A DNA stretch of 64,000 nucleotides from Cenococcum geophilum 1.58 (Eukaryota > Ascomycota > Dothideomycetes > Gloniales > Gloniaceae), in contig KV748198.1 of NCBI GenBank assembly GCA_001692895.1, positions 1,400,367 to 1,464,366 on the forward strand, read 5' to 3'. Numbering within the stretch: the first letter of the stretch is position 1; each line of letters opens with the position of its first letter. The notes beneath the pieces are model-generated. The model was not told the DNA's origin, did no database searches, and was given only the letters and a program-made list of their open reading frames with translations. This document shows positions 8,404 to 60,370 of this stretch, one piece after another. A program made the translations under genes and the position numbers.

Positions 8404-9138
8404 TGAAAGTAGATAATGGCCGAAGAAAGTAGGAGAAGAAGAGTTGGAAGCCTGAGACGGTGGTAGTGAGGTAGAAGTAAACTCTGATGACTGCTAGAAG
8501 TGAAGAAGAAGATATGATGAGGTCAAAGGGTTGTCGTACAACTAGTCAAAATGCTTGTATTGATGATATGGTTGTCGCCGGCAAAGCAGGGAGCAACGGT
8601 GAGAGCATCTACCAATAGATGAGAGACAAATAATGCCAACAGCATAGAGAAAACGAATATAAGAAAATGTTTACAAGTGTTGCGTACAACATGGAATACT
8701 GCCGGACGTTGCAGGTGACTTTATAGAGGGCAATGCGATGAAGGGATAGAACATGCTACCTTGATGTGAATGCACCTATTATGCCTCTACGCAATGAATT
8801 TATCATTCTACAACAATAAGACATTTATTTGGATATATATGTATGCACAGCACTTCGTGCGGCGGGCATGCGGCGTTTTCCATTGTGGCAGTTTTCTCCG
8901 CCACCAGTTTCGTTTAGGATAAAGACCCTAAGTGCGTGGAGTGAACCGTCCATAACCATGCTTTTGCGCCAAGGAGTCTCGCCTCAGCTAAGTGGACCTC
9001 GTGCATGGTAGTGGGCCTTCGAGTGCGGTCGTCATCACCACAACGGGTCGGAAACCCGCCTTAGAAAGCCGATTAACTTACCGTCCCTGGCGCCATATCC
9101 CCTGTTATAGCCTCTCTATGTGATAGATCTCGCTTATC
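8404..9138. other. Intergenic, upstream of the NLR gene
   Basis: No supported gene; presumably contains the promoter and leader of the plus-strand NLR gene that starts at 9139. Confidence 0.5.
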
Positions 9139-12100
9139 ATGACCACGCACAAAGCCCTGGAGAGTCGTGATCTATACACTGTGGGATGGATTGCCGCTCT
9201 TCCGATAGAGTTGGCAGCGGCGACCGCCATGCTTGACGAGCAACACGAAAAGCCTCTCGATTTCGCGCATCCTTTCTCTGACAAGAACTCATATACATGG
9301 GGCCGCATTGGCGAGCATAACGTGGCCATTGCATCGCTACCAGCGGGAGTTTATGGCGTAGCGCCCGCTGCGACTACTGCATCACATATGCTGTCTTCCT
9401 TTCCACAAATTCGTGTCGGGCTCATGGTAGGCATTGGGGCTGCTATCGCAAGGCCGGAACGAGGCCATGATATCCGACTGGGCGATGTTGTCGTTAGCCA
9501 ACCTGACGGACGAAGCGGCGGAGTTGTGCAGTACGACCTCGGAAAGGCAAAGGAGGGACATGGTTTCGAGCGCAGAGGTAATCTCAACATGCCACCGGAG
9601 GCTCTTCTTAAAGCACTAGCCAAGCTCCAGGCACAGCACGAGATGCGGCCGCCTAAAATTCCTGAATTCCTAGAAGAGATGGTAAAGAGGTATCCTCAGA
9701 TGGCGAAGTCAAAACCCGGTAAACCTGGGTACGTGTATCAGGGGAAAGAAAATGATCGGTTGTTCAAAGCAACGTGTCCGCATGTTGATGGCTTTGGGTG
9801 CAGCAACTGCGATTCTAAGGGAGAAATAGCACGGGATAATCGGGATTCTAATGAGCCGGAGATCTACTATGGCATCATCGCATCCGGCAACACTCTTGTC
9901 AAAGATGCCGCGTTCAGAGATTCAATTTGTAAGGATACCGGGGAGGAATGCATCTGTATTGAAATGGAAGCAGCCGGTCTGATGAACGGCTTCCCGTGTC
10001 TCATCATCAGGGGAATTTGCGACTACGCGGACTCGCACAAGAACGACCGGTGGCAAAGGTATGCTGCCGCAACCGCTGCGGCGTATGCAAAAGAGTTTCT
10101 TGGCGTTGTTCCGGGAGAGGATTTGGAAAAGACGCGAAGGGCTGCTGAAGTTCTGGACTCCGGTTAGTTTGCCTCTTTAACCTCATGAATGCCATTAATG
10201 ACAATCCAAAAAGTCGCAAACGACGTAGCTCGCATCCGCTCTAGTGTTGACAGGCTGCGCCTTGATGATCATCAACGCAAAATTATCAAGTGGCTACGTC
10301 CGCCAGATCCGTCAACAAATTACAACAAAGCGTTAGAGCAACGCCAGGAAGGGTCAGGCCTTTGGTTCTTACAAAACGATGTGTTCGCCAAATGGAAGAC
10401 ACGGCGAAACTCCTTCCTATGGCTATATGGCATTCCTGGGTGTGGTAAGACGATTCTTAGCTCCACAATCATTAAAGATCTTAGTAGAACTCCTTCCCAT
10501 CAGCCTCTTCTCTATTTTTACTTCGACTTCAACGATACAGCTAAGCAGGCGCTTGAGAGTATGGTTCGGTCACTTATCAGTCAGCTATGCTACAGGTGCA
10601 ACGATGCTTGGAAACAATTAGATTCGCTCTTTTCTTCGTGCCAAAAGGGACTTCACCAACCAACCTGCGAATCACTTTGTATGGTCCTCTTGCACACGAT
10701 AGAGCAGAACATGGAAGTCTGGATTATTCTTGATGCCCTTGACGAATGCCATACAAGAAAAGGGCCGCCAACAGAAGGGTTGCTCTCATGGATAAAAGAT
10801 CTCCTAAGCTCAGAGCAAAGGAACGTCCACCTTCTTACGACGAGCCGGCCAGAACAGGACATTATGTCGGGATTAAATAAGCTTATTTATGACGGTAACA
10901 CAGTTCCAATTCAGAGCGACCTAATCACTAATGATATCCGTGCCTACGTCCGCAAGAGGGTAAGAGAGGATGAGGGTTTCAAGAGATGGCAAGACCGATC
11001 GGACGTACAGGACGAAATGGAGACCCGGCTTATGGAGAAGGCTGATGGAATGTTAGTTCTAAGCGCCTTCCCTGAGGATTACTATCCGTAATTACATACT
11101 AAAAATTAACAGGTTTCGATGGGCTGCATGTCAACTTGACGCCTTAGTAGATTGCTTCGATTATGGAGAGCTTAAGGACGCGCTCACTTCCCTCCCGAAA
11201 ACCTTATACGAGACCTATGGTCGGATTCTACACGGTATACCTTCTCAACACAAAGAAAAGGCAGTAAGAATTCTACAATTCTTAGCATTTTCTGAGCGGC
11301 CGCTGCGAATCGAGGAGGCTGTGGATGTGATAGTAGTAAAACCTAAAGAAGAACCATTCTTCGATCCAAAAGCGCGGATACCTAACCCATTAGAGATCTC
11401 GCGTTACTGCTCGAGCTTAGTAGTGGTGCTGTCCACGAAGGGCCATTCGCACGATAAGGACGACGAACACATGGAACTTCAAATAGCTCATTTCTCTGTC
11501 AAGGAATATCTGATGTCAAACTATACTGACAAAGTCATCACTCAAAATTTTCAGGAGGAGGCTGCTAAAGCTTCAATTGCAACAGTTTGCCTTGCATATC
11601 TATTGCACCTGGACTTCGATCTGGACCTTCCAATCCAGAAGATCAAAGAGACCTTTCCGTTGGCCCAGTATTCGGCAACATACTGGATGATCAACGCCAT
11701 AGTAGCAGGAGGGGAGGATGAAACGGTACAAAGTTTAATCGTTAAGTTTTTCTGCTCCCATCAGAGGTCCTATAAAATCTGCTATAGTCTTTACCGCCCA
11801 GATCAGCCACGGTACGGTGTATCGGATCTAAGAGAGGGAAATCTAGCCCCGCCTTTATATTACGCATCGTTTGGAGGGTTCAGGAATATAGTACAAAGCT
11901 TATTAAATCGGGATGCCGACGTTAACGCGCAAGGAGGACGTTACGGTAACGCGCTGCAGGTAGCATCGGTCAAAGGTCACGAGAAGGTGGTCGAGCTGCT
12001 GCTTTGGAAAGGTGCTGACGTTAACGCGCTAGGAGGAGAAAAATACAGCAACACGCTGCAGGCAGCATCGGCCGGGGGCCACGAAAAGGTGGTCGAGCTG

Positions 12101-12985
12101 CTGCTCAGGAAGGGCGCTGACGTTAACCCGCTGGGAGGAGGATACTACGGTAACGCACTTCAGGCAGCATCGGGCGGGGGCCACGAGAAGGTGGTCGAGC
12201 TGCTGCTCGAGAAGGGCGCTAACGTTAACACGCGAAGACGAGGACGCTACGGCAGCAGCGCGCTGCAGGCAGCATCGAGAAAGGGCCACGAGAAGGTGGT
12301 CGAGCTGCTACTTGGGAGGGGCGCTGACGTTAACGCGCTGGGAAGAGAAAAAGGATACGGTAACGCGCTGCAGGCAGCATCGGGTGGGGGCCACGAGAAG
12401 GTGGTCGAGCTGCTGCTTAGGAAGGGCGCTAACGTTAACACGCGAAGACGAGGACGCCACGGCAGCGCGCTGCAGGCAGCATCGAGCGAGGGTCACGAGA
12501 AGGTGGTCGAGCTGCTACTCGGGAGGGGCGCTGACGTTAACGCGCTGGGAGGAGGAGGAGAATATGGTAACGCGCTGCAGGCAGCATCGGGTGGGGGCCA
12601 CGAGAAGGTGGTCGAGCTGCTGCTTGGGAAGGGCGCCAACGTTAACGTGCAAGGTGGATACTACGGCAACGCACTGCAGGCAGCATCAGGCAGCGGCCAC
12701 GAGAAGGTGGTCGAGCTGCTGCTTGGGAAGGGCGCTAACGTTAACATGCAAGGTGGATACTACGGCAACGCACTGCAGGCAGCATCATGCAGAGGCCACG
12801 AGAAGGTGGTCGAGCTGCTGCTTGGGAAGGGCGCTAACGTTAACGCGCAAGGTGGATACCACGGCAACGCGTTGCAAGCAGCATACTACGGCAACGCGCT
12901 GCAAGCAGTATTCTACGGCAAGGCAGCATCAGGCAGAGGCCACGAGAAGGTGGTCGAGCTACTGCTCGGGAAGGGCGCCGTGTAG
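9139..12985 (+). CDS. NLR-type protein: PNP_UDP - NACHT - ankyrin repeats
   Basis: Three exons (9139..10162, 10214..11051, 11113..12985) give 1244 aa. Residues 10-330 are a nucleoside-phosphorylase-like domain ([52 protein letters not shown]). From residue 342 follows the linker typical of these proteins (WLRPPDPSTNYNKAL, GSGLWFL), then a NACHT NTPase with Walker A GIPGCGKT (about residue 414) and Walker B WIILDALDEC (about 509). The C-terminus holds one degenerate and ten nearly identical ankyrin units of 33-35 aa. Introns 10163..10213 and 11052..11112 (donors GTTAGT) restore the frame. Fungal proteins of this architecture are NLR-like and some NLRs act in heterokaryon incompatibility or response to non-self; the trigger for this one is unknown. 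It reads as intact. Confidence 0.92.
11925..12982 (+). repeat. Tandem array of ten near-identical ankyrin-repeat units
   Basis: The core encoding HEKVVELLL recurs with starts near 11981, 12083, 12185, 12290, 12395, 12497, 12602, 12701, 12800 and 12944, so spacing is 99-105 bp until the last, enlarged unit. Conserved positions match at nucleotide level, not just protein level. Variation sits at the residues before HEK (VK, AG, GG, RK, SE, GS, CR, GR) and in the inter-repeat loop (ALGG, TRRRGR, VQGG). The last unit carries an extra GNALQAAYYGNALQAVFYGK stretch, which looks like slippage. Confidence 0.95.
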
Positions 12986-25007: not shown

Positions 25008-25291
25008 GGCTCTGAGTTGAAGATTCCGCGCGGAGACGTAACGATGTTTGTTTTATCAACACATTTGATGCGTTTTCTTTGGTAGAGGATGACACCCCTG
25101 TTAATAGTACTCGTCCGTTGACCCCTGATGGGAGTGACGCGGCCTGAGGACGTTTATTGAAGAAGAAAGAGGGGATGAGGAAGAGGACGGAAACGAGCGG
25201 TAAGATCTACAAGAGAAGTACAAATTCACACGCGGAAAATAATTAAAGAAGTGGGGCCACGTGTATATAGCGATCGTCTCGTCGTGGTATA

Positions 25292-25428
25292 CAGGGTCCG
25301 CAAGGTTCGGTGTCGCCCCCCCCGTGCGCGCAGCAGCGGTGGCATCTAATTTCGCTTAAGCTTCGCCTAAGTTAGTATGTAGAGCTAGCAGAATTAGATG
25401 TAGTGGCCGCTAGGGGGGGGGAGACGTT
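25292..25428 (+). repeat. Left terminal inverted repeat of the Tc1-type element
   Basis: Matches the reverse complement of 28746-28882 except for the length of C and G runs. Contains GC-rich blocks (GTGCGCGCAGCAGCGG, GGCCGCTAGGGGGGGG) untouched by C-to-T change. Confidence 0.85.
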
Positions 25429-28400
25429 GCCTCCTTGCATTTGAAGCTATTCGCAACTTCTCTTCCTTACCAATATTGTAATATCTACTCTAGATCTTAG
25501 TGTAATAGAGCCTTCCTTTTATCAATATGAGCTCTAAACATACTGCCGCTGCCGCCGTTAGAAGTCCTTCTTATCCACCCTATCAAAGGCCTTAACTATT
25601 ACCAATACTGTCCTTATCTATTCCTTAACCACCTATCTTAACGCAGAGCTTAAGTATAAGTACGGTCGTAACTCTGCCGCCCGTATTTAGTAGCCAGATT
25701 AGCACGTAGCTTAACTTCTCTCTACTAATAGCGTTTAATAGGTTGCCTCCATTATAGTAGGTAGCTACTTTTACTAACGGCGAGCTTAAGGAAATATTAA
25801 ATGATTTTAAGGCAGCAAAGGAGGCAGATTATAAGAAGGTTTAACGCTTTTATTAATCGCAGGATTATAATATAATAAGGGCTCCTCCGCAGCTACTATA
25901 TCTTACGTAGCTTTTAAATATAGGTTCCTATTATCCTTTAAGTTAGCAATAATATTATTAGTTACCATACCTCCACTTAGAGCTTAATCTAGATAATATT
26001 AGCCACTATATACAAACCCCGCGTTAATCGCGGAGACCCCCTATACTTCCTTTACAAGTATTTAAGCCAATACCTAAAGATTTAATGACGGAAAGTAAGG
26101 AGGAGGAGCCACCGCCAAGGCTTTAATTTAAGCATAAATTAGAGTAGCAAAGCCAAGCGGTAGAGGTATCTTTTTTAACTATTATCTCTTATTATTAGCG
26201 AAGCTTAAGAAGGGCGTACGGACTTAGAATATAGTTATATATACTTTTACTAACTCTCGCCTAAGCCTCTCGCTTACATATAGTTATAATATACTGCCTA
26301 TAATTAATAAGGCTATTAAGCAGCAGCTTCCTAGCCGTTGCGTTATATAAGAGTTATATAATACATCGGTTTTATATACTAAGAAGAATAAGACTTAAGT
26401 AATGTTTAAGATTAATCCTAGTTAGGAAGCTAGCTAGAGCTTAATTAATAGTAAACTTATAAGCTTAGTAAAGAAGCACCAGAATATAGATGGCTCTACT
26501 AAGCAGCTCTTAGTTAAAGTCAGCTTTATATATATTATGGTAAATAATTAAGCTAGATCTACCGCTTACTCTACTAATCGTTTTATAATGGCCGCATAGT
26601 TATTAATATAGCTATTATTAATACAGCTAGCTGCTACTGTCTCCTTATAGGATACGCCTCTAAATATACCGTAATCTAAATAGTATAAGGCTAGTAATAC
26701 TACTTATCTTCTAGCCCCCTACCTAAAGACTACTAAGCTCCGGTTAAAGCTATATAGGGAGTAAAAGTATAAGAAGAGGTGTCTAGGCTCTTCTTAGTGC
26801 TAAATCTATTACTAAGTTGACTATAAGCTAACGCAGGAGGACCTTAAGGAGTGGGCGCGGGCTATTAAGGATAGTTTAGCTACTATTTATATACCTTATA
26901 ATAAGCTATTAAAAAAGCTTTAAGATTAGAAAAAGGGAGATAGTAAGAAGTTTTAACTTGCCTTTACTAAGTCGCCTATACCTAATACTCCTAGTGTTAT
27001 TAATTAATTCTATATTAATCTAACTAATAGGCAGTATAGGCGTCTAGCTATACTACTATTAGGGCAAGACCTAATTACAAGATTATTACCTGTAGTTCCT
27101 TTACCTTATTCGCAAGGCCTAAATTATATAGCTAATCTACGGGAGTATTTTAACTGGTAGAAGCTCTTAGTATAAGAAGACCTAGAGTAGGAGAGTAATT
27201 TTAAAGCCGCCTATTAAGTTGCTTGTAAGAAGCGGTGGGACTTAAGGATTATTAGGGAGTAGAAGCTAAATAAAGAGGGTAAAACGCTAGTTAATATAAT
27301 AATTAATAAGGGAGTACTAGAGGTAATTGCTGAATAGGTATATTAGGATATTAAGAACTAGAGGACTTTGTAAGTTGCTTAGCTTTCTAATAGTATTAAG
27401 GATTTAGAGAAAGATAAGCAGTAGATTTTTTACACTAGTATAGCTTTGCCTAAAAGTTTAGGGTAAAATATAAATTTTACTAGTAATTTATATAAGAGTT
27501 TTATAATATAGTAAGCCGACTAAAGCAACGTCTAACTCCTACTAAAAAACACCACGCTAAGGATTATAAGGTTTAACCCAAATCTAATAACTTACTAACT
27601 CTTCTATTAATCCTTCCTTATATATACCTACTATAGCTAAAGTAGGCTCTAGCGTTATTACTCCTTTTACTTACAGTATCTATATACTACTATAGGAAGT
27701 TTTTAAACTTATTACCCTAAAGCTCTAGCTTACTCCTCTATAATTTAAAATATTATTAAATATACTCCTTTAGCTTACCAAAGAACTCCTTAATTAGATT
27801 TAAATTAGGCGAATATATAAGTAAATAAACAAGCACTATACCATGCTTAGTAAAAAGAGACTTAATCCATTCTAAATAGTAGAAGCTTATATTATCTATA
27901 ACAACTACTAACCTTAAAGCTAGATAAGGATTATAGTAAGATAGAAGGTAGTGTTTAATCTAGTAATTATAGCCTTCCGCGTTCGTTAAGCCGCTATATA
28001 CTAACGATATTAGTACACCGTCAATAGTATATATAGGTAAAATATTAAGCTGCTGCTCGCCGCGATTATATAGAGTATATAGGATTAGCGTCGTGCCTAC
28101 CGGCGCCTAAGCCAACTTTTATATACCTATTTTTAAATTAGCGCTAGATTTATCTATAAAGACAAGTTGCTTAATAGTAAACTATAAGATATTGGCCTAG
28201 TATTAATTACGGTCCTCCTAACTCCGCTTTAAAGTAATGCAATAAGCCTTATATATAAGTAAATTATTTCCTTATCCATATATTTAGAATATAGCTTACT
28301 AGCTTTCTACTCTAGCTAGTAACTCTTAACTCTACAGCAATTATTTACAGGCCTACTATAACTCTAAAACTGTTGTATATATACTAAGCCATCTTATCTA

Positions 28401-28745
28401 GATATAGATTTAGTGCCTTATTAAGTTGGTAAAGTAATACAATAATTATCTAAGAGCTTAGCGCACTCTTTAGGCCAAAGTATACACGACTAAGTCTCAT
28501 CCTTCTATACCTCTCTAGTTTCTATTAAATTTATTAAACAGCTCTACAAGAGCACTTGGCTTAAATACAACACTGTTAATTAGTGGCGCCCGCGTTAATA
28601 AGGATTTCAAGGAAAATATATTACTATTCGCGCATATTAGGCGCTATATTTAATAGAGGCGATAATAAGAGTTACACCATGATCTAGAATAAAGATCACG
28701 ATATTAGTAAGGAAGAGATATTATAAATAGCTTCAAACGTAAGGC

Positions 28746-28882
28746 GACGTCTCCCCCCCCCTAGCGGCCACTACATCTAATTCTGCTAGCTCTACATACT
28801 AACTTAGGCGAAGCTTAAGCGAAATTAGATGCCACCGCTGCTGCGCGCACGGGGGGGGCGACACCGAACCTTGCGGACCCTG
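28746..28882 (-). repeat. Right terminal inverted repeat of the Tc1-type element
   Basis: Mirror of the left repeat, ending GCGGACCCTG before the TA target duplicate. Confidence 0.85.
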
Positions 28883-28884
28883 TA

Positions 28885-35476: not shown

Positions 35477-35745
35477 GTTGGCGCTCGAGTCTGAATACGC
35501 ACAATTGATCTGTGAAGGTGGAAACGCTGGGTTCTACAATCTCGACGAGTGGGAGCCACGCACTCAAATATCAAGAAGTTTGAGCCAGGGTTAGTGTATC
35601 TCTCCGCCGGGAGTTTATCCCTCCGCAAGCACGCTATGCCTCACGATGATCGACAGATGGTGGTAAACCCTCGCTCCGGAGAGCTCGATATAACCATATC
35701 GTTCGGAGTTATCGTATCTCCGTGGCGGGTGCCGGGTCAGGCATA

Positions 35746-36170
35746 ACGTGTCTCACCAGTCAGTGGCGCACACCAGTCAGTGGCGCACCCTAAAAACCTA
35801 CCAAAAATCAGAAAAACTGCACCTTAATATCTTGACAACGGCTTAATAATAAATTCCAAAATTTTATAATTAGCCTTTTATACCTACATTAAGACTTTTA
35901 ATAAAGTTTTAGCGTAACAAGCCTGGCCGTTATTAAATATTAGTGTTTAGCCCCTAATTTTAAGCTAAATTGCGATATCTCTAGAGCTACTTAATAGATT
36001 ACTTTTTAAACCTAATAAGAGGTTTAAAATACGTATAAAAGGCTAATTATAAAATTTCGGAATTTATTATTAAGCCGTTGTCGAGATATTAAGGTGTAGT
36101 TTTTCCAATTTTTGGTAGGTTTTTGGGGTGCGCCACTGACTGGTGTGCGCCACTGACTGGTGAGACACGT
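35746..36170. mobile_element. 425 bp foldback MITE with TA target duplicate
   Basis: Left ~160 bp beginning ACGTGTCTCACCAGTCAGTG is the reverse complement of the right ~160 bp with few, mostly C/T, differences. Each end carries the motif CACCAGTCAGTGGCGCA twice in tandem. TA flanks both sides (35744-35745 and 36171-36172). No coding capacity; the element can fold into a near-complete hairpin. Likely a Tc1/mariner-mobilised MITE. Confidence 0.85.
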
Positions 36171-36348
36171 TACCGTGGGACACTTTCTGACTAAGCGTTT
36201 TCTTTGCAGCGTGATAACACAACTAAGGTTAAGAATAGAATGATAAAAAAGAGTAGTTAAAGTAATGCTGGGAGAGTCTTAGAAGGAATTTATAGAAGAT
36301 ATACCAAGAGTTGTGGTTGTGAAAGCTATCAATCTTCGCATAGGCTAA

Positions 36349-37063
36349 GGGTATGTTCGGTTGCAAATTGCCTCCAGATCAGAATTGTCTTGATCCGTGC
36401 ATCCTTTGGCGTCAATTAGTAAGGTACTCGTGGCGTCTAATTTGATGGCTTCGTTTGATCTGTAATTGAGTCGATTGTTCGGTAAGGCTCCAGAAGAGGC
36501 TCCAGAAGAGGCTGCAAATCATTAATCAATTTTTGAGCCCACCTTTGAGCCCACCTTTGCGCCCACCTCTGCCCTCAGGCCTCTATCGCGACTTCCTCCC
36601 TTAGTGTCGTAATACAATGGAGTCTCCTACTCCTGCCAATCGTCAATCAAGTCGATTGAGGCCCTCTACCCCGTCACCCGTATCACGCCCGGCTCGCCGC
36701 GCGTGCGCAGGAAGACTCTAATTACGAGAGTAAGAAGGACATCATATATAACGTACAGGTGCTGTGTGAGAATCGTGTACGCAAGTGGAGTCGCCATATT
36801 TGACAAAGGCGTCGTCGCGTAGAGCCCCAGATTGATTCTGAATCTGGAGATAGGCCTCCGGAATATTGTGGTGCCAAGAGCTCCAGAACAACTACCTCAT
36901 ACGGCAAAGCGTGCAAATTTGACGCGACTGCTGATCTGGAGGAGCTCCAGGTTGAAAAGTCGTCAGAATCACCGAACGATCGCGTCAGATTTAGATTTGA
37001 CCTCCAGATCAGATTAATTCTGGAGCCTCCAGATTGATTCTGGAGTTGCAACCGAACATACCC
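36349..37063. mobile_element. 715 bp TIR element, copy 1, with TAA target duplicate
   Basis: Ends GGGTATGTTCGGTTGCAA and TTGCAACCGAACATACCC are perfect inverted repeats; TAA flanks both sides (36346-36348 and 37064-37066). A three-base TWA duplicate is typical of PIF/Harbinger elements, which is the tentative family. Interior repeats of CCAGA and CTCCAG motifs and no clear transposase, so non-autonomous. Little RIP damage in this copy. Confidence 0.75.
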
Positions 37064-37314: not shown

Positions 37315-40300
37315 GGGTATGTTCGATTAGAATTGTCTTAATCCGTGCATCCTTTGGCGTTAATTAGTAAGATAGTACGGAGTAGTGGCGTCTAATTTAA
37401 TGGACATGTCTATGTGGCTAAGCGAGCACTATAGCAGCACCCCTGCATCTTAGTAACACTAACATTATTAACATTTACAAAATTAAGCCTTGCTTGCTTG
37501 CTTTCTATATTAGTCTTATTTAAGAGCTAATGCCTTATTTACTTAATTTCTAATAATTAATTGTTGCTGTTAATAACTTAACGACCTATACGCTCGTCTA
37601 AACCTTCACAAATTATTTATAAAAACCTTAAAAACTTAACTAATAACAATATACTCGACGAGCTAAACTCCTTAGAGGTTATCTACCAGTCTCCCTTACC
37701 TTCCCCTATACCTTTAGGCGATACGCCGGCGTTATAGTCTTTATCCTCTATAATGGCGCCTCTCTCCGCGGCTTAACGCGAGACTTTAGCCGCTAAAAAA
37801 GCTAAAAAACGGTTCCAGTAACTATATAAGGAGGACCTAAGAATTAGAAGAGCTTAGGTAAAGGAGGTTAAGGATTAGGTAACTAACTAGAAAATAAAAC
37901 TCCTTTAGGAATAGAAGGACTGTACCGAAATACTACGCGTCTAAAAAGAATAGGAAGATTAGGCGACTAAACTCTATATATTAAGCCTCGCTACGGTAAT
38001 AGCGAGATTAGCTACGGCAGTATTATCCTTAACCCCAATTAATAAACTGGGTAAGTTGCTCCTATCTATAGCTAATATCCTAAATACCCTCCTCCCTGGC
38101 GTCCTAAATAAAGAGATACTTAAGGTATTTTGGGGTACTTTCTTACCTAATAACCTCTCTCGCCTTTAGATACACTAGCTCTAGTCTAAGCCTTAGAATA
38201 ATATCCTTATTATTAATAGCGTCCTTTTTATAAGACTAAAAGAAGGGACGATAAAGGACTACCCGTCCGTTAAAGTGTGGGTAAAGGGCTTCCTTAACTA
38301 TATAATAATTTTAATTATTATATATAAGAATCTTTCGGTAGATCTTATTCCCTAAATACTTATCTTCTACAATTAAGTTATCTAGCTATCTACTACCTAC
38401 TAAATTGCTCCCTTAATAACTATAGCCTTAGAGTACTACTTTATAGTTATTTAAAAGAACCAGTTAGAGCTAGCCAACTAAAAGATCTTTAGTAACTTCT
38501 TGGATATTTATTGCAATCCCAGTACTTATAAATCCGCATTTATCTCAAAATATACGCGAATAAGTACTAATATCTTAAGGACCTATTACAGCTTTAATAG
38601 AGGGAAGTATAACCTAGGTAAGAATTACAAGTTCCCATATACCTATAGTAAGTGCGGTAGCCTATATACTGCGAGGAATTATAAGTAGTAATTACTAGAG
38701 GAAAGTATTAATAAGGAAAAGGAAGAGGAGGAAGAGGATTTTATTAAGCTATACCTACACTCCGCTGAAACCGTGCTCTACCCTTATAGTATAGGTAGGC
38801 CAAATACTATACTATTATTTCTAGTCTTTCTACCCTCCTCTCCTCTATAGGACTCTCCCTCCCCCTTAATTATTTAAGCGTAGGGGCGTTATCTATTCCT
38901 ATACCCTAGCAACCTCTAATATAACATTATCGGTATTTTAAAGTTTAGATACTAGATTAGGGCAGACCTAAAAATTAAGCTCCTTTTCTAGAAGAACTAA
39001 GCCTTAATAGCTATAAATACGGTCCTAATCTTAGAGAAGATCAGCGCCGATTTAGACATAGGTAGAATTATAATAGTAACGTCTTCTATTATATCCTTAC
39101 CGCTAGGTTTAGTACCTAAAGCGGATAGGGGATGGCGCCGTATTTATAACTTATCCTTACTATCTAGCCGATCTGTTAATAACTTAATCCCTATAGTATT
39201 CGCCACACTATAATATTTAACAGTTAATTAGGTTCTCTAATACGTTATATATATAGGCTATAGTTATATAATTGTTAAGAGGGATATTAAGGACGCCTTT
39301 CGGAATATTCCACTTTTTATTAAAGCTTAACGCCTTATAGGGTTCTTTTAGAAGGGTATAGTGTATTTCGAACGTTGCCTCTTATTCGGCCTTTAAACTA
39401 CACCCTTTTTATTTAATCTTTTTACGGAGGAATTCCACTAGATACTTATCTAATATATTCTAAACGCCGCCTTAGAGTACTATCTAGATAATTTTATCTT
39501 TATACTCTCTAACGCTTCTATTCTCCCTTAATTACTTAGTATATATAACTAATTAAGCGATAAATTAGGTATTCTATAAAATAAATTAAAGAATATTAAA
39601 GGCACTACAGCTAAAGTCCTAGGTTATATTATAGATACTCTAAAGTTTAAGCTGCGTCTTTCTTCTTTAAAATAGGCCATTATAATTAAGGAGATTAATA
39701 AAGCGTTAAGTGGTAGATCCCTAACGCTGGTTTAGAGTTAAAAACTAGCTAGTAGACTCGCTTGGAGCGCCTAGGTAATTAGGCTTAGGCGTTTATATAA
39801 CCGCTCTATCTAAGAGTTTATCTCTACTTTTATAAAGGTAGGTAGTTATCCTTATTAATAACTAACAGCTAAACTTCGCTAAGACTTATTATAGTAAAGG
39901 GATGCTCTTACCCTTTTAAATAGTATCCTCTTCTTTAATGATACGGATTAAAAATAATTCTATCTCTTCTTAGACGTATTTGGGATTCTTAGTTACAGGG
40001 CCTTCTTCTTCCTTAAGGATTCTTAAGGGACAATATGGCCGCCCTATTCGGTATCTTTACCCTAAGATAATTCTTTAAGCTGCTACCCTAATATAGAACA
40101 CCGCCTTGCCCTAATTAATAAGTGGGAGGTCTAAGCGATTATAACCTTATTCTAGCTCTAGGCAACGCAGTAGGAGTATAGCTTAGTTTATATCTATATA
40201 GATAATATAATAGTACTCTTAGGATTCTAGAATATAGTGGTAAAAGGACTAGGTAATTACCCGCTCCGTAAGATCCTTTAACTAGCCGCAGCCTACAATA

Positions 40301-42749
40301 TTACGCTCTATGCGGAGTAGGTTTCCTTTACAGAAAACGGGCTAGCTGATACTTTATCTCATTTTAATCGCAATAGGGTATTATTACTATACCCATATTA
40401 GGATACTTCTAATTTACCATTACTATACGCTTCTTTATTATATTTAATTTAACGCTAAAATAGGAGACCTAGTCCCTCTTAAAGACCCCCTACCTAATTT
40501 CTAGATTAAGGTAAAAGCCCCCTTAGAATACTTCGGCTAACTATTATAGTATAGCCTCTCTAATGGAACGAGAGATTTATACCGTCCCGTAATTAAGAGT
40601 TAAAAGAGCTACTATAACCTTTATAGAGCGATAAAGTACCTAGCGCCCCTTTACTACCTAGGAGAATAGATTACCTAACAGATCTTCGGTAATGCTAGTC
40701 TAGGAATAAGCTATATTAAGCCTACTATAGTTAGAGCCTATATTTCCGTAATTTAATCCCACTATATTAACGCTAATTATAACACCTCCGTCTTTAATAA
40801 TCCTATTATTAAGAGGATCCTAGACGGTGTAATATCTATAAATCCCTCTACTACGGCTAAAAGATTGCTAATTACTAAAGATATCCTCGCCTAATTGGTT
40901 ACCCTAAATACCTAATCCGTTAAGGATCTTAACTTTAACGCCGCCGTTACCACGGCCTTTATAGGATTCCTTTATCTAGGCGAAATTACCTACACTAAGG
41001 CTTAGAAAGATAGCCACGCCTTCTCTACTATAAAATATACTAGAAACGATATAACGCTAGTAGAGAACTATATAATATTATATCTAAAGCGTAGTAAAAC
41101 GGACGTTAATTACTAAGGAGTCTTAATTATAATTACCGCTTTAGGGTAACCTAAATACGCAGTTCGAGCTATAAAACACCTATTTAAAAATAACCCCTAA
41201 CCCAGAAATGCCCCTCTCTTTCGCTTTAAGAGATCGGCCTTTATAAGCTACGCGGTTAGGAATAAGCTAAAGTACAGAGTTGCCGCTCTTAGCCTTTACT
41301 CTAAGCTCTATAACGGATACTTATTTTAAAAAGGTGCTACTTAATACGCTTAAGATAACGGTTTTACAGACGGCTAAATATAGTAACTAGGCCGGTGGTC
41401 CTTATAAGCGTTCCAGCTTTACTATTTATTATCCCCAAAAAACCTATTCTGGCTAAGTATAAACTTCTAATATAGAACGCTAATACTGTTCTTATTATTA
41501 CTCGCCCTAAATATAATAGGCGAAGGTATTTAGATATAACGGCGTGCAAGAGTACCTATTTTAGCACTCTAATATATTAACTTAAATCTCTTCTTTCCCC
41601 CCCTTTTTTATTTTTTATTTTTTCTTCCCTCTACTCTACCTTATATAGTACGGGCGCTGCGCTTCTAGGTCTATAGGCATTATATTTAGTTAAGGTAGGG
41701 CAATCCCCTATAAATGGCCTTGCGAATATACCCATTTTTAATTAATACCTTTAAGCCTATACCTACTAATTAGATTAATTAATCCTCTTCTCCACAAGCA
41801 TATAAATAATAGATGGATATGTCTATATAGCTAAGTAAGCACTATAGCAGCACCCCTGCATTTCAGCAATACTAACATTATTAACATTTACAAAATTAAG
41901 CCTTGCTTGCTTACTTTCCCTTCCACCTATACCTTTTTCTTTGGTTGTATATTTTGGGCTTTATAAATAGATACTGTAGCGATATGCTTGCGCACGGGTC
42001 CATAGGCATCACGTTTAGTTAAGGCAGGGCAATCCCCTGTAAATGGCCTTGCGAATATACCCATTCTCAATTGATGCCTTTGAGCCCGTACCCACCAATC
42101 AAATTAATTAATCCTCTTCTCCGCAAGCGTGTGAATAATAGATGGCTTCGTTTGATCTGTAATTAAGTCGATTATTCGGTAACGCTCCAGATAAGGCTCC
42201 AGAGCTCTAAATTACTATTAGCTTCGCTCACCAAAATAATCGATTTTTAAGCCTGCCTTTGCGCCCACCTCTACCCTTAGGCCTCTATCGCGACTTCCTC
42301 CCTTAGTGTTGTAATACGATGGAGTCTCCTGCTCCTGCTGATCGTCAATTAAGTCGATTAAGGCCCTCTACCCCATCACCCATATTACGCCCGGCTCACC
42401 GCGCAGGCGCAGGAAGACCCCAATTACGAGAGTAAGAAGGACGTCATATATAACGTGCAGGTGCTGTATAAGGATCGCGTACGCAGGTAGAGTCGCCATA
42501 TTTAACAAAGGCGTCGTCGCGTAGAGCTCCGGATTAATTCTAAATCTAGAGGTAGAGATTAAGGCCTCCAGATTAATCTGGTGCTAAGAGCTCTAGAACA
42601 ACTACCTCATATAGCAAAGCGTGCAAATTTAACGCGACTGCCGATCTGGAGGAGCTCTAGATTAAAAAGTCGTTAAAATTACCGAACGATCGCGTTAGAT
42701 TCAGATTTGACCTCCAGACTGATTCTAGAGTTGCAACCGAATATGCCCC
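37315..42749. mobile_element. Same TIR element, copy 2, split by a DIRS-type retroelement
   Basis: 37315-37403 and 42142-42749 together match copy 1 in order; the two halves are separated by 4.7 kb of inserted DNA. This copy shows more C-to-T and G-to-A changes. Left flank TTA, right flank CTA. Confidence 0.75.
37404..42141 (+). mobile_element. Fossil tyrosine-recombinase retroelement (DIRS/Ngaro type)
   Basis: About 4.7 kb. Parts in order: 5' repeat A1 (37404 to about 37504); gag-like region with a CCHC remnant near 38640; reverse transcriptase (LPLGLVPKADRGWRR at about 39100, RDIKDAFRNIP, then a YLDD-like site at about 39485); RNase H region at about 39990-40330; tyrosine-recombinase region at about 40560-41450; then B1 (about 41668-41812), A2 (41817 to about 41915) and B2 (about 41994-42141). 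The A1 ... B1-A2-B2 layout is the split direct repeat of Ngaro-type elements. No LTR-style target duplicate; ATGG lies at both edges and at the B1/A2 junction. Many breaks; strongly RIP-marked. Treated as a fossil. Confidence 0.8.
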
Positions 42750-43335: not shown

Positions 43336-43548
43336 CATTAACGAGTTAGTCAATTGAGGTATAAGTACAGTAGGAAGGATACGTATAAGCCTATACAATT
43401 GGATTGCCTATTAACGAGGATTTAAAGCTAGAGAAAGGAAAGGAGAAGAAGAGCAGCGCCGCTCGAAGTAGGATTTTTTATACGGTCCTCTAGTTATATA
43501 ACTACAGCCATTTACTATATTCTCCCGCAATCTACTAGTACTATAATA
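43336..43548 (-). mobile_element. LTR of a minus-oriented Ty3-like family, copy A
   Basis: About 213 bp matching 43608-43831 and 48274-48519 (shared GAGAAAGGAAAGGAGAAGAAG and GCAGCGCCGC). Followed by about 59 bp of the family's internal sequence before copy B begins. Fossil. Confidence 0.7.
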
Positions 43549-43607
43549 TTACCCCATCTCTAAGAAAAGCCTACCCTTAGGCTTTATATATCCGTATTAT
43601 ACCTATA

Positions 43608-44576
43608 TATTAGCGACTTAGTTAATTAAGGCACGAGTATAGCAAGAGGGACACGTAAGCCTATATAATTGGATTGTCTATAAACGAGGATCTAAAGCTA
43701 GAGAAAGGAAAGGAGAAGAAGGGTAGCGCCGCTGGAAGTTTTATACAATCCTCTGGTCACGTGACTAAAACTAACCAAAACTAACTGCGATTATCCGCCA
43801 CAATCCACCGTTTTCCACTAGTGCTATAACATTACCCCCTCCTCTAAAAAGCCTACTCTTAGGCTTTATATGTCCGTATTATGTCTATAAGGTGTTCTTA
43901 TCTTTATACTTAATAGGCAGCTTATTATCTTCACTATACTAACACTTTATTTACTTATTTAGGTACTTTAGAGGTTTAGGCTTATTAGGGTATTAGTTAT
44001 AAAACCTTTTAAAAGCTTTTAGGGGTAGCCTATAAAGTTTTAAATAAGGTACTAAGTTAGGTCTAAATTATAGCCTTTTTATTAAATATAGTATTATAGT
44101 ATTCCTTATACTAATTTATAGGCTAGTATTTTATTAACTTCCTATTTATTATCGCTATTAACTTAAATTGGTAGTGGTGGCTTATTTTTTTTATATCTGA
44201 GTAGTAGGTTATTTATAGCTTTCTATAGCTTATCTAGTAAAAAGATTAGGTAAACCTTTATTACGGAACAAGGGTAGTAGCTATAGAGCGTATGTATTTA
44301 AGGAGTCTATAAAATATTACACGATCGATCGTAAGGGTCGAGGGCGTAAGGAGGTAATATACCTACGCGTAGCTAACATAAGCTATACGCGAGGTATACG
44401 CAAAAGCACGGGGCTCTCCTATAGAGGCCCCTGCGGTAGGGTTCCGTAACAACCTTAATTAAGTCTAAAGGCTTAACTTTATATAAGTTATCTACTTTAT
44501 TAAAGATCTTATATAGTTTTACTATTTTATAGTCTAGCTTATAGCTAAGCTATTCTAATTTCTAGTTCTTTATTAT
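43608..44576 (-). mobile_element. Fossil 3' end of a Ty3-like element, copy B, cut by a later element
   Basis: LTR at 43608-43831 (224 bp, minus orientation) followed by about 740 bp that match the 3' internal part of the minus element at 48520-49140. A solo LTR of another family lies inside it (44259-44451) and the plus-strand Ty3-like element begins at 44577. Broken, heavily RIP-marked. Confidence 0.7.
44259..44451 (-). mobile_element. Solo LTR (193 bp) with ACCTT target duplicate
   Basis: Ends TATTACGGAAC and GTTCCGTAACA are inverted; ACCTT flanks both sides (44254-44258 and 44452-44456). The uninterrupted target sequence is seen in the related element around 49020. Fossil. Confidence 0.75.
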
Positions 44577-47500: not shown

Positions 47501-48273
47501 TTATAAAGCTAAATCTTTATAATATATATTATAAAATTCGCATTAAAAAGGAAGATAAATAAAAGACCTTATTTAAGACACGCTATAGTCACTTTAAGTA
47601 CCTAGTAATGCCCTTTAGTCTTATTAATGCCCCTATAACATTCTAGAGCTACATTAATAAAGCTCTAAAAACCCTAGTAGATACTATCTATATAGTTTAC
47701 CTAGATAACATTCTTATTTACTTAAATAATAAAAACAAGCACGTTAAGTACGTTAAGCAGGTACTATAACAGCTCTACGCTTAGGGCCTATACGCTAAAC
47801 TATTAAAGTATATCTTTTATATTAAGAACGTTAAGTTCCTAGGCTTTATTATTACCCTTAGGGGTATTATAATAGACCCTAACCATATAAAAGCTATTAA
47901 GGAATGGCCTAAGCCTAAGTCCTATAGGGACATCTAGGTCTTCCTTAGCTTTGCTAACTTCTATAGGCGATTTATCTAGAACTACTTAAATACCGTATAC
48001 CCCCTATACGCATATCTTATATAAGCATATTATAACCTAATATTAGATAGGGAGAAAAAATAGAAACGTAAGTTAAAAGGGCCTACTAAATAGTATTAAC
48101 CTTAGTCCTAGCCTAATAACGCGTAGTAGGCGTTCTGTAAGCTATACGCTACGTTTATATAGGCTCCTCTACTTCGCCACTTTAACCCTAATCTACTCCT
48201 AAGAGTAACTACTAACGCTTTTAACTATACCTATAGCGGTATACTTCTATAGCCTTTAGGGTAAGAAAATTAA
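44577..48273 (+). mobile_element. Fossil Ty3/gypsy-like element, plus strand, 3' part missing
   Basis: 5' LTR from TGTTACGGGACTT at 44577 to roughly 45010; gag region from about 45073 (MPLKRKPTPIPN); protease region around 46300-46900; reverse transcriptase around 47340-47900 (YINYRRLNKII, VMPFSLINAP, VYLDNILIYL, FLGFIITLRG); RNase H begins around 48100 and ends abruptly where the next element's LTR starts at 48274. Many breaks; RIP-marked. Confidence 0.8.
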
Positions 48274-51200
48274 TATTAGCGACTTAGTTAATCAAGACAT
48301 AAGCACGGCAAAAGGGTCGCGCAAGCCTGTACAATTAGATTATCTATAAACGAGAATCTAAAGCTAGGGAAAGGAAAGGAGAAGAAGAGCAGCGCCGTTT
48401 GATGTTTTATAAGATCTTCGCGTCACGTGATCACAATATGCGGCAACCTGTGGCAACTTGCCGGTTCGTAGTTCTGCTAAGTTCTACTAAGTTCTGCCAG
48501 TTCTACCAGTGCCGTAACATTACCCCCCCCTCTAAAAAAGCCTGCCCTTAGGCTTTGCCGCTAAAAGTCTTAGCAAGAGAATCTAACTAATTAGACAACT
48601 TTAACCGCTGGTTAAAGTTCCTAAACATCTTAAGACCTTATATGACTAAGAAATTTCTAGGGCGTTTTTATCCTTATATTCTTCTAGTAGCTTATTATCT
48701 TTATTATACTAGCATTCTATCCACTTATCTAGGTACTTTAGCGGTCTGGGTTTATTAGGGTAACAGCTATAAAACTCCTAAAGCTTATAGGGGCTACCTA
48801 TAAAGTTCTATATAGGGTACTAAGTGGGGTCCGGGTTATATCCTTTCTAACTAATATAATACTTTAATATTCCCTTTACAAGTTTATAGGCTAGTATTTC
48901 TTTAATTTTCCATTTATTATTATCGTTAACTTAAATTAGCAAGGGAGGTTTATTCTTTTATCCGGGTAGTAGGTTATTTATAGCTTTCTATAGCTTATCC
49001 GGCAAAAAGATAGGGTAAACTTTAATTAAGTCTAGGAGCTTAACCTTATACAAGTTGCCTACTTTATTAAAAATCTTATACGGTCCTACTATTTTATAGT
49101 CTAGCTTACGGCTAGGCCGTTTTATCTTTTAATTCTTTATTATAACCTAGACCATATTGCCTACAGTAAAGTTAGGCTCGCGCCTATACTTATTTGCCTA
49201 CTATTCTATTAATTTCTAAGCCTTTTTTAGGTTTATATAGGCTACTTTCTAGGCTTCTTCTAAGCGCTTAGCGTACTACTGGGCTTCCTTATAAGATAGT
49301 TTTTCGCATACGGTCTAGGGCCCTTTTAGTTTTTCCTAGTTAAAGCTTATACGGGGTAGGTAACCTATTTCTAGTTAAATAGGGGCAAATCCAGTAGAGT
49401 CGTGGGGTAGGGTAGCTTAGGCGTAGTCTATTAAGGGTAGTAGTTCGGCCTAGTTATCCTAGAAGTAGTTAATAAAAGGCTAAAGTCTCTAGTCCAAGTA
49501 TTAATTTATAATCTCTATTTAACCATCTGTCTAGGGGTAATATACTATAAAAAGCTTTAGCTTAATACCTAGGATCTAGGTAAACTTATTCTAAAAGGCT
49601 AATATAAACTGCGGCCTATAGTTAGATATAATAGTATCTAGTGGTCCGTAAATTTAGTAGACATAATAGATATATAGTTAGGCCGCCTCTTTAGCATTAA
49701 TATTTTTATAATAGGGAATTAAGAACGGGCGTTTACTAAAGCAGTTAACTAGGATTATAACCATATTATATCCATTACGGTCTAGAGGTAGCTTATAAAA
49801 GTCTATAGAGATATATTACTAGGGGCGGTCGGGTATTAAGAGGGGTTTTAATAGTCCTAGGGTCTTATCTCGTGGAATTATAGACCTATAGCAGTTATTG
49901 CAGTTCTGTATATAGCGGTTAATATCTATAATTATTCCGGGCTAGTAGTAGCGGTCGCTAATAATCCTACGGGTTTTATTTTTTTTAGGGTAGGCTATAG
50001 AGACCTAGGCGTGTGCTTTGGCAATAAGCCGAGTCCATAAGTTCTATTCCTCTGCTACCACTAGCCGTTTATAGTGCTTAAGTAGTCCACTTTTAAGGGA
50101 CTATGGGCTAAAAACGTTCCTTACCTTTTCGCAGTACTCCTGTAGAGAAGGGGCTATATAGTTTACCTATAGTAGTTTATTAATAAGGTCCAGTTCTATA
50201 GAGTTAATAGGGTATATCTCGGCATTTAAAGAGTCTATATTTAGTTCTGCCCGTATTTAGGAGTTAAGGTGCTCTAGTTATAGTAGCGCTTAGGTCCGTA
50301 ATAAGATCTTTACAGCTATCTAGTTATTTATATCCTGTTTACGCCTTATAAGAGCGTCCGCACAGTTAATGGCGCCGGGCCTATATATAATTAGGAAGTT
50401 AAACTAAGATAGGGTGTCCGCCTAGCGCGCCTATCGGGCTATAAGGGCCTTTATTATTATAAAATATTCTAAGGCCTTATAATCGGAAACTACCTAAATA
50501 GACTTAAGGGTGCCTTTTAATTAGGCTCGCCAGTGCTAAAAGCTAAAGATAATAGCTAGCATTTCTTTATCGTAAATCGGGTAGTTTAGCTCAGTATTTA
50601 CTATTATCTTCGAATAGTAAGTAATAGGGTGCCATTTTCCATTTATCTGCTTTTGGGAGTAAACGCCAGCTATAACACTATCTAAGGCATCGGTTTCTAG
50701 CATTAAGGGCTATTTTAGGTTAAAGTAGGCGAGTAAGGGAGCAGAGACCAGTTATTTCTTAAGCTCGTTAAAGGCCTGCCTATATATAGTGTTAAAGTAA
50801 AAGGGCCGGTCCTTGTGGGTAAGTAGGCTTAGTAGCCAGGTAATTCTACTATAGTTCTTAATAAGCGTTGGTAGAAGTTACAGAACCCTAAGAATAACTA
50901 TACCCCCTTTACGGTCCTTAGGGGTACCTATTAGTTAATTACAGCTATCTCTTCTAGGTCTGCCTTAATCCTATTTATACTAATAATAAACCCTAGGTAT
51001 TTTATACGCTTAACACTAAATTCTAACTTCTTAATATTAGCTTAGAGGCTAGCTTTCCGAAGCCGTTATAGGACTTTATAAATATGCTCTTTATATTCTA
51101 GTTTATTTTCAGAGTAAATTATAATATTATCCAGGTATGCTATATAGAAGTCATTAAGGTAGTCAAATAGTACATTATTTATGTATCGTTAGTATGTGGC

Positions 51201-52084: not shown

Positions 52085-52308
52085 TGTAGTGGGGTAAAAT
52101 AGGCCACTGCTTAGTGCCTTAGCATTTTCCTGTATATATCAAGCCTTCGGCTTCTCTCCTTCTCTCCATCACAACCTACCAAGAATACATTCTTTCCTTT
52201 CTTCTTACTGACTACTTTCCTACTGATTAATTACGACTGACGACCGACCGACCGACAGACAGACAGCACTGTGACTTTCCTATCTGAGAGTGGTCGTACC
52301 CTCCCATA
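52085..52308 (+). repeat. 5' LTR of the gag-only element
   Basis: 224 bp; matches 57502-57725 with mostly C/T and G/A differences. Confidence 0.85.
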
Positions 52309-57501: not shown

Positions 57502-57725
57502 TATAGTGGGGTAAAATGGGCCACTGCTTAGTGCCTTAGCATTTTCCTATATATATCGAGCCTTCGGCTTCTCTCCTTCTCTCCATCACGACCTACCGAG
57601 AATACATTCTTTCCTTTCTTCTTACTAACTGCTTTCCTACTAATTGATTATAACTGATGACCGACCGACCGACAGACAGACAGCACTGTGACTTTCCTAT
57701 CTAAGAGTGGTCGTACCCTCCCACA
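57502..57725 (+). repeat. 3' LTR of the gag-only element
   Basis: 224 bp; followed by the CTAC target duplicate. Confidence 0.85.
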
Positions 57726-58069
57726 CTACTAACTTTATCAGGAAAATATAGTACCCTTTTAATAGCCTTAATAGCTAGTAGTTAACGCAATTAGCGCGCA
57801 GTTAAGGTCATTTAGCAACTCGACCGACTAGCCTATATCGTGTTTTTTTAACACGCAGCCTACGCGTAGCCTACGCGCAACCTGCGCGCAACCTGCCAGC
57901 AATCTACGCATTTAGCAACCATAATTATATTTACCTCTTTTATACTAATAGCATATTTTAAATAAATAAAAGCTACTTTAAAGCTATTTATAAGGCTAGC
58001 AAAATAAATATTATTATTTTAGATAATTTAATATAATATAGCGATAGTTCTCTTCTACCTATCTACCTA
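57726..58069. other. Unassigned AT-rich sequence
   Basis: Should continue the interrupted minus-strand element after the CTAC duplicate, but no protein remnant is recognisable. Contains a short run of GCGCAACCTGC-like repeats near 57855-57900. Confidence 0.4.
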
Positions 58070-58470
58070 TTAACTTACCTACCTGCCTACATTACCTATC
58101 TATCTACATTACCTACCTATCTACATTACCTACCTATCTACATCGCTACCTATCTACATCTACTTACCTATCTACATCTACTTACCTATTTATATCTGCT
58201 TACCTATCTATATCTCCTACTACTATCTATATTACCTACCCGTCTATATCGCCTACCTATCTATATCTACTTACCTATCTACATCTACTTACCTATCTAT
58301 ATCTTACCTACCTATCTACATCTACTTACCTATCTATATCTACTTACCTGTCTATATCTACCTACTATCTACATTTACTTACCTGTCTGCATTTACTTAC
58401 CTATCTATATCTGCCTACCTGTCTACATCTGCCTACCCGTCAATATCTCCCCGTTTTAACCTACCTGTCT
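58070..58470. repeat. Tandem repeat array 1 (ACCTATCTACAT type)
   Basis: Variable units of about 12-18 bp built on CTACCTATCTACAT and CTACTTACCTATCTACAT; imperfect. Confidence 0.85.
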
Positions 58471-58539
58471 ATGCTACCTTAATTCGATCAATCGATTAAA
58501 TCGTTTATAGTGTTTCGCTAGCTAGTCATTATCGTCTGG

Positions 58540-59385
58540 CTGGCGACAGTCGTCTAGTTCTGGCGATGGTCGTCTGACTCTGGAGACGGTCGTCTAGTTC
58601 TGGCGACGGTCGTCTGGTTCTAGCGACGGTCGTCTAGCTCTGGCGACAGTCGTCTGGTTTTGGCGACAGTCGTCTGGTTTTGGCGACAGTCGTCTGACTC
58701 TAGAGACGGTCGTCTGGTTCTGGTAACAGTCGTCTAGTTCTAGTAACGGTCGTCTGGTTCTGGCAACGGTCGTCTAGTTCTAGCGACAGTTGTCTGGCTC
58801 TGGCGATAGTCGTCTAGTTCTGGCGACGGTCGTCTGGTTCTGGCGACGGTCATCTGGTTCTGGCGACGGTCGTCTAGTTCTGGCGACGGTCGTCTGGTTC
58901 TGGCGACGGTCGTCTAGTTCTAGCGACAGTTGTCTAGCTCTGGCGATAGTCGTCTGGCTCTGACGACGGTCGTCTGGTTCTGGCGACGGTCGTCTAGCTC
59001 TGGCGACGGTCGTCTGGTTCTGGTAACGGTCGTCTAGTTCTGGCGACGGTCGTCTGGTTCTAGCGACAGTTATCTAGCTCTAGCGATAGTCGGTCTGGTT
59101 CTAGCGACGGTCATCTGGTTCTAGCGACGGTCGTCTAGTTCTGGCGACGGTCGTCTAGTTTTGGCGACGGTCGTCTTGGTTCTAGCGACAGTTATCTAGC
59201 TCTAGCGATAGTCGTCTGGCTCTGACAACGGTCGTCTAGTTCTGGCGACGGTCGTCTGGCTCTGGCGACGGTCGTCTAGTTTTAATAACGGTCGTCTAGT
59301 TCTGGTAACAGTCGTCTGGTTCTGGCGACGGTCATCTAATTCTAGCAATAGTCATCTAGTTCTAGCAACGGTCCTCTGCTAGCTG
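58540..59385. repeat. Minisatellite array 2, 20 bp unit, about 42 copies
   Basis: Unit TCTGGCGACGGTCGTCTAGT and variants (TCTAGCGACAGTTGTCTAGC). Variation is mostly G/A (CTGG/CTAG, ACGG/ACAG) at fixed positions, with single-base insertions near 59092 and 59175. Confidence 0.92.
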
Positions 59386-59504
59386 CCGTTCTAGTGCCTC
59401 CCTAGGTAGGGAGGATATAAGGAAGGAAGGAAGGGTAAAAAATAAGGCGGCTACATAGGGCAGAGACACATATAGACGCTATCGGGAAATATAGCGGGGA
59501 CCCG

Positions 59505-59967
59505 ATGCAGAGCTTCATATAGAGCCTCCGTACGCAGAGCTTCACGCAGAGCTTCGCGCAGAGCCTTGTGCAAAGCCTCTGTACGTAGAGCTTCGTATAG
59601 AGCTTCGTGTAAGAGCTTCGTGTAGAGCCTCTATATGCAGAGCTTCGCGCGCAGAAGCCTCGTGCAGAGCTTCGTGTAGAGCCTCCGTACGCAGAGCTTC
59701 GCGCAGAGCCTCGTGTAGAGCTTCGTGTAGAGCTTCGTGCAGAGCTTCGTGCAGAGCTTTGTGCAGAGCTTCGTGTAGAGCCTCTATGCGCAGAGCTTCG
59801 TGCAGAGCTTCGTGCAGAGCCTCTATGCGCAGAGCTTCATGCAGAGCCTCTATGCGCAGAGCTTCGTGTAGAGCCTCTATGCGCAGAGCTTCGTGCAGAG
59901 CCTCTGTACGCAGAGCTTCGTGTAGAGCTTTGTGTAGAGCCTCGTGCAGAGCCTCATATAGAGCCTT
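59505..59967. repeat. Minisatellite array 3, 12/15 bp units
   Basis: AGAGCTTCGTGC (12 bp) mixed with AGAGCCTCTATGCGC (15 bp), more than 30 units. The plus strand is open for 71 codons (RAS/RRAS repeats) only because of the unit length. Confidence 0.92.
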
Positions 59968-60089
59968 TAAGTAATAAGACTATATAAGATTGTATAAGAT
60001 TATATTAGATAATATATAATAGTTAAATATATAGCATATAACTTTACCTTAATTACATATTAAGAAATATACAGTTACCTTTTAAAGTT

Positions 60090-60370
60090 GCTAAGTAGGT
60101 TAACTGCGTATTATTTAACTTTTAAATATATTAAGTTAGTTAATTGCGTGTTAATTACGTATTAAGTTAGTTAAATTGCGTGTTAAGTTGGTTAATTGCG
60201 TATTAAGTTAGTTAAATTGCGTATTAAGTTAGTTAATTGCGTATTAAGTTAGTCGAATTACGTGTCAAGTTGGTTAATTACGTGTTAAGTTAGTTAAATT
60301 GCGTGTTAAGTTAGTTAAATGCGTATTAAGTTGGTCAATTACGTGTCGAGTTAGTTAAATTGCATGTTAA
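60090..60370. repeat. Minisatellite array 4, about 20 bp unit
   Basis: Unit GTATTAAGTTAGTTAATTGC with variants (TTGGTTAATTACGTGTTAAG); about 13-14 copies. Confidence 0.88.

Follow-up and report, generated by a model that had tools for sequence, protein, structure and literature searches.

A probable Ngaro-like retrotransposon inactivated by repeat-induced point mutation in Cenococcum geophilum, and a probable ATGG core shared by its circle and its target

In a 64,000-nucleotide stretch of contig KV748198.1 of the ascomycete Cenococcum geophilum 1.58 (this whole stretch is called the window below), an insert of 4738 bp (37404-42141) lies inside the second of two copies of a small host element with terminal inverted repeats (TIRs). 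The locus raises the question of what kind of element the insert is and how it entered its target. A preliminary description, made from the letters alone, had called it a DIRS/Ngaro-type element that joined its target at a core of four letters, ATGG. Tyrosine-recombinase retroelements are thought to put a DNA circle into a short core without making a target duplication. Our analysis indicated that the insert is very probably a Ngaro-like tyrosine-recombinase retrotransposon that repeat-induced point mutation (RIP) has inactivated, and that its circle very probably entered the target through a core common to both, either ATGG or GATGG. The order that reads best is A1, a gag-like region, reverse transcriptase (RT) and RNase H, recombinase, B1-A2 and B2, in which A and B denote two pairs of repeats.

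The ends of the insert are formed by split direct repeats, with A1 at the left end and B1-ATGG-A2 followed by B2 at the right (A1 ... B1-A2 ... B2). With ATGG counted, A1 and A2 are 91% identical over 106 nucleotides (nt; 10 differences) and B1 and B2 are 86% identical over 149 nt (21 differences), and the A alignment and the B alignment share exactly these four letters. All of the 31 differences between repeat copies are C/T or G/A transitions (10/10 in A and 21/21 in B); 20 of them stand in a plain CpA/TpG context and 6 in such a context with a neighbour that also differs. Because only transitions separate the copies, both pairs were most likely free of differences at the time of insertion. 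The arrangement of long terminal repeats (LTRs), in which one direct repeat occurs at either end, was not found, since A stands at the left end and B at the right. Inverted terminal repeats of the DIRS1-like type were not found either: the termini are direct, and among the longest 25 of 35 inverted pairs none joins the ends of the element. The coordinates, the split repeats and the three copies of ATGG given in the preliminary description were borne out by sequence and alignment, while its classification narrows to the Ngaro side; judged from the orientation of its repeats, which are direct and not inverted, the element is Ngaro-like and not DIRS1-like. No further copy was found in the rest of the window by blastn (eight query stretches) or by tblastn (three protein stretches, E up to 1). 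A TATA-like sequence was noticed by eye at 41960-41970, within the spacer between A2 and B2.

ATGG stands at both edges of the filled site and between B1 and A2, while copy 1 of the host TIR element, which has no insert, carries it once, at 36445-36448, matching the insertion point. When the two flanks of the insert were joined and aligned to copy 1 (744 columns, of which 80 were gap columns), 589 of 664 aligned positions were identical and the junction was free of gaps; the 75 aligned differences of copy 2 from copy 1 comprise 46 C-to-T or G-to-A changes, 17 reverse transitions and 12 transversions. The empty target proposed earlier holds as far as its single ATGG and the gap-free junction are concerned; copy 1, however, is a paralogue, another copy of the host element, and not the empty allele of the insertion locus. 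The same short core was thus present at all four places tested (both edges, inner junction and empty site), in one element copy and a paralogous empty site. The letters are GATGG in the empty relative, at B1/A2 and at the right edge, and AATGG at the left edge; the shared core may accordingly be GATGG instead of ATGG, as one RIP-type change of TpG to TpA would account for the left edge.

The edges of an insertion cannot separate a core from a short duplication, but here an inner junction and an empty relative adjoin them, which makes the model unusually readable. The third ATGG discriminates between the two because the circle junction is expected to be copied at B1/A2, and its letters at that place favour a recombination core. 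The chance agreement of two element tetramers is 0.0084, and the frequency of ATGG is 0.0015 in the element and 0.0027 in the window. That (G)ATGG is a fixed core of 4-5 bp in this Ngaro family, where DIRS1-like elements use a shorter one of 3 bp, is a tentative proposal to which we give somewhat less than an even chance. If it holds, integration would be sequence-specific, and genome sequence alone would suffice to read the circle junction and both the filled and the empty site. No published statement of a Ngaro core was found in a partial survey of the literature that did not include the founding papers of the family. The junctions supply a core to look for in further copies.

For the region between the repeats, Pfam was given a selection of the forward frames out of the element's six. 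The RT remnant noted earlier was recovered as RVT_1, with an E-value of 5.4e-7 (30 bits, against a cut-off of 29.6) when stop codons were written as X, and of 1.8e-9 (38 bits) when they were read through; a match to RVT_1 does not discriminate between Ngaro and other RTs. The letters YLDN occupy the position expected for the YLDD box. Searches of the RT stretch against PDB and NCBIfam each returned a single weak match, to a reverse transcriptase/ribonuclease H (E 1.1) and to a retron RT (E 0.005, far short of the cut-off), respectively. By eye, an RNase H-like stretch follows the RT, and the gag-like region, in the frame starting at 37405, contains a degraded stretch that weakly resembles a zinc knuckle. 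Pattern searches for relatives gave 142 matches in genome contigs and 36 in viral contigs for the RT stretch, and 67 and 22, respectively, for the recombinase-like stretch; tblastn confirmed none of them.

Several observations weigh against the Ngaro reading. The preliminary description had named a lack of recombinase similarity in profile searches of 40.5-41.5 kb as grounds for dropping it, and on this point the outcome was adverse: neither Pfam, NCBIfam nor PHROGs, which returned only chance-level matches to other families, nor PDB revealed any. A profile-profile comparison with Cre, lambda Int, XerC and XerD gave an E-value of 0.6 and a probability of 0.1%. RNase H had no Pfam match, whether stops were written as X or read through, and gag was not recovered either, as Pfam gave no family at E up to 1 for the frame starting at 37405. 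In addition, 5 of the 31 transitions between repeat copies fall in contexts other than those of RIP, inverted-repeat arms flanking the core do not rise above chance (best 7/13, null mean 7.2), the core is read from one element copy, and the edges together with the empty site, taken alone, fit a 4-bp target duplication as well. A bare catalytic pattern without the glycine was uninformative and was set aside: it occurred 7 times in the window, and 1496 of 3000 simulated sequences also matched.

The recombinase remnant of the preliminary description, for which profile searches found nothing, gains its support from the spacing of its motifs. A RIP-tolerant pattern (R..E, His..Arg, Gly with Trp or His, Tyr) was used, in which the His and Arg places were limited to residues reachable by C-to-T and G-to-A changes; its spacings were derived from Cre, lambda Int, XerC and XerD, and it matches all four of these. 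Over the six frames of the 64-kb window it had one start only, with a match at 40973-41425, where the recombinase is expected. It matched 16 of 3000 second-order Markov sequences of element length. The C-terminal box (with glycine) alone matched 63-65 of 3000 simulated sequences, and 7 of 3000 when only a 1.2-kb forward stretch at the expected place of the recombinase was counted. These counts are partly post hoc and to that extent belong with the adverse points, as the patterns were written after the stretch had been viewed. The distance from R-I to His is 115 residues here and 116 in Cre. The codons that now occupy the positions of Arg, His, Arg, Trp and Tyr are TAT, TAC, TAA, TGG and TAT, respectively, so that of the Arg, His, Arg and Tyr of the known enzymes three are lost. 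Damage by RIP probably explains the failure of the profile searches, a reading that the spacing test supports. An LG.W form of the pattern (one window match, 0 of 3000 simulated sequences) was left unused because it had been shaped on the same stretch. An AlphaFold single-sequence model of the stretch was too poor to use (predicted local distance difference test, pLDDT, 42.8; predicted template modelling score, pTM, 0.30). A recombinase motif, applied as a degenerate pattern to viral contigs, gave 5 loci whose short open reading frames (ORFs) looked unlike recombinases by eye, and tblastn of window stretches against these loci gave a best E-value of 1.7.

The life cycle that we propose follows the published model of the order by analogy. 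RNA running from inside A1 to inside B2 would be reverse transcribed. Split repeats serve to restore the ends of such elements; here the inner B1-A2 copy would fill in the missing ends, and a DNA circle would close with one B-ATGG-A junction. The putative recombinase of the element would then swap strands between the ATGG (or GATGG) of the circle and the identical letters in the host TIR element, and of the two cores, that of the circle and that of the target, one would come to stand at each edge, with no duplication from a staggered cut. After integration, RIP would have mutated the interior.

A staggered-cut insertion, by a DDE integrase or an endonuclease, would produce exactly the look of the edges, with ATGG twice and once in the empty relative, and the failure of the profile searches to find a recombinase speaks for it as well. 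Under this explanation ATGG is an ordinary 4-bp target duplication and its occurrence at B1/A2 is chance, which leaves unexplained the third ATGG (chance about 0.0015 to 0.008), the split repeats in place of LTRs and the spacing match of the recombinase-like stretch; we therefore regard it as improbable. No integrase family was found by Pfam, a weak argument, since only selected forward frames of degraded sequence were covered. The core and the circle integration put forward in the preliminary description are supported by the split repeats, the RT, the recombinase-like box at its expected position, the repeats downstream of that box and the third ATGG, with the reservation that the core may be one letter longer. 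A PAT-type element, of the methyltransferase-bearing branch of the DIRS group, would integrate in the same way and is compatible with the core reading, and split direct repeats are described there also (PMC4157794). However, no methyltransferase match was found by Pfam in the element, in searches that also miss the recombinase, and only about 200 bases lie by eye between the RNase H-like and the recombinase-like stretches, so that PAT membership has a slim chance at best.

The distribution of RIP offers a further alternative to a single Ngaro-like element. Much of the DNA from 38 kb onward is rich in A+T and TpA and poor in CpA/TpG; this composition, along with the long ORFs of the window, which have few interruptions, suggests a filamentous ascomycete subject to RIP. 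A heavily mutated block extends from about 37506 (support 37499-37571) to about 41793 (41771-41851), and the depletion of CpA/TpG breaks off abruptly close to the inner limit of A1 on one side and to the B1/A2 junction on the other. Per 100 bases, CpA+TpG amount to 10.7-15.2 in A1, A2, the spacer and B2, to 5.5 in B1 and to 2.7 in the interior; the T/A state is carried by B1 at 20 of the 21 B differences and by A2 at 8 of the 10 A differences. In a two-step assembly, a short insert of A2-spacer-B2 would already have been present when a 4.4-kb circle (A1-interior-B1) entered it at its ATGG or its A repeat and produced a tandem. Such an assembly would agree with the length of the block, which is near one A-to-A period of 4413, with the light mutation of A1, A2, spacer and B2 relative to the interior, and with the distribution of the T/A state. 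However, an unrelated TIR element at 25290-28884 (143-nt arms, 99% complementary) also has spared ends around a RIP-mutated interior, with change points at 25479 and 28830. Because these ends are spared too, spared ends look like a general edge effect of RIP. The intermediate value of B1 also speaks against two steps, as does the description of single Ngaro elements with the order A1-B1-A2-B2 (PMC8547959), and we consider two steps the least likely of the three alternatives. Mobilisation in trans of an element already killed by RIP, which the sharp RIP boundaries could also suggest, was rejected because the ends of the TIR element at 25290-28884 are spared too.

In the layout A1-[ORFs]-B1-A2-B2, with RT before a putative recombinase and possibly a frame shift between them, the element resembles the Ngaro elements of basidiomycetes (PMC3783388, PMC8547959, PMC4157794), in which the inner repeats lie downstream of the recombinase (PMC4157794, PMC8547959). 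If the recombinase reading is right, the same holds here, as the match ends at 41425 and B1 starts at 41668. The element differs from basidiomycete Ngaro elements in being killed by RIP and ascomycete, in a putative recombinase and a putative RNase H below profile detection and in a 78-nt spacer between A2 and B2. A survey of 177 fungal genomes reported Ngaro in Basidiomycota (Coprinopsis, Puccinia and others) and one truncated ascomycete copy without terminal repeats (PMC3783388), one complete family (RYN) is described in Zymoseptoria tritici (PMC4502367), and counts for ascomycetes are tabulated elsewhere (PMC9281073, PMC7601665, PMC7181583). Compared by description only, the element shares its phylum with the Z. 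tritici family and with the truncated copy, that of Neosartorya fischeri (PMC4502367, PMC3783388), but has the terminal repeats that the latter is described as lacking (PMC3783388). The kind is therefore already known, Ascomycota included, and less rare than the preliminary description implied, given the complete Z. tritici family (PMC4502367); the present element adds one more member, an ascomycete copy with complete repeats where a single truncated Ngaro was known for the phylum in the 177-genome survey (PMC3783388). DIRS1-like elements integrate by recombination at a short circle-junction motif of 3 bp without target duplication (PMC3266345), and the present element would share with them a circle-junction copy within the element and recombination at a short shared motif. 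They have inverted terminal repeats, inner complementary regions, a methyltransferase and a 3-bp motif, whereas here the repeats are direct and the proposed core has 4-5 bp. Cryptons, whose terminal 4- or 6-bp direct repeats are taken as recombination substrates (PMC3212892), are likewise recombinase-based with short terminal direct repeats, but they belong to the DNA transposons and have neither an RT nor long direct repeats.

Table 1. Positions in the window of the parts of the element, its junctions and the two copies of the host TIR element.
Feature	Position	Strand	Basis or remark
Uninterrupted copy 1 of host TIR element (paralogous empty site)	36349..37063	.	19-nt perfect inverted arms
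Left part of interrupted copy 2 of host TIR element	37315..37403	.	alignment; ends in ATGG
Left-edge ATGG (core copy)	37400..37403	.	sequence
Repeat A1	37404..37505	+	91% to A2, all differences transitions
Degraded zinc-knuckle-like stretch, gag-like region (frame starting at 37405)	38644..38685	+	by eye, weak
Reverse transcriptase remnant	39112..39633	+	Pfam RVT_1; coordinates from read-through match
RNase H-like stretch 3' of RT	39958..40380	+	by eye in translation
Tyrosine-recombinase-like remnant	40592..41503	+	next frame after RT; spacing test; ends chosen for searching, not measured
Repeat B1	41668..41812	+	86% to B2, all differences transitions
ATGG at the inner B1/A2 junction (presumed to copy the circle junction)	41813..41816	.	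sequence, alignment
Repeat A2	41817..41918	+	pairs with A1
Spacer A2-B2	41919..41996	+	outside A and B alignments
Repeat B2	41997..42141	+	pairs with B1
Right-edge ATGG (core copy)	42142..42145	.	sequence
Right part of interrupted copy 2 of host TIR element	42146..42749	.	alignment

Up to about 35.5 kb the window consists mostly of host genes, with the TIR element at 25290-28884 lying among them, and nine of the ten ORFs submitted (26 listed) had Pfam matches, including xanthine dehydrogenase-like, KH-domain, MgsA-type ATPase, phosphorylase, NACHT and ankyrin ORFs. The last three are consecutive at 9127-12985 in an NLR-like arrangement, and the ankyrin part contains a tandem repeat of about 102 bp. 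An inverted repeat at 35744-36172 has 160-nt arms that are 92% complementary, with 109 nt between them. Beyond the insert, diverged direct repeats at 43337-44576 and 48273-49143, about 4.6-4.8 kb apart in RIP-mutated DNA, are perhaps the LTRs of another dead element. A 220-nt direct repeat with 94% identity is present at 52087-52306 and 57504-57723, 5.4 kb apart, and it is followed by a run of tandem arrays at 58055-60370, in which a 20-bp unit occurs about 42 times at 58532-59378 and units of 12-54 bp occur at 59506-59955.

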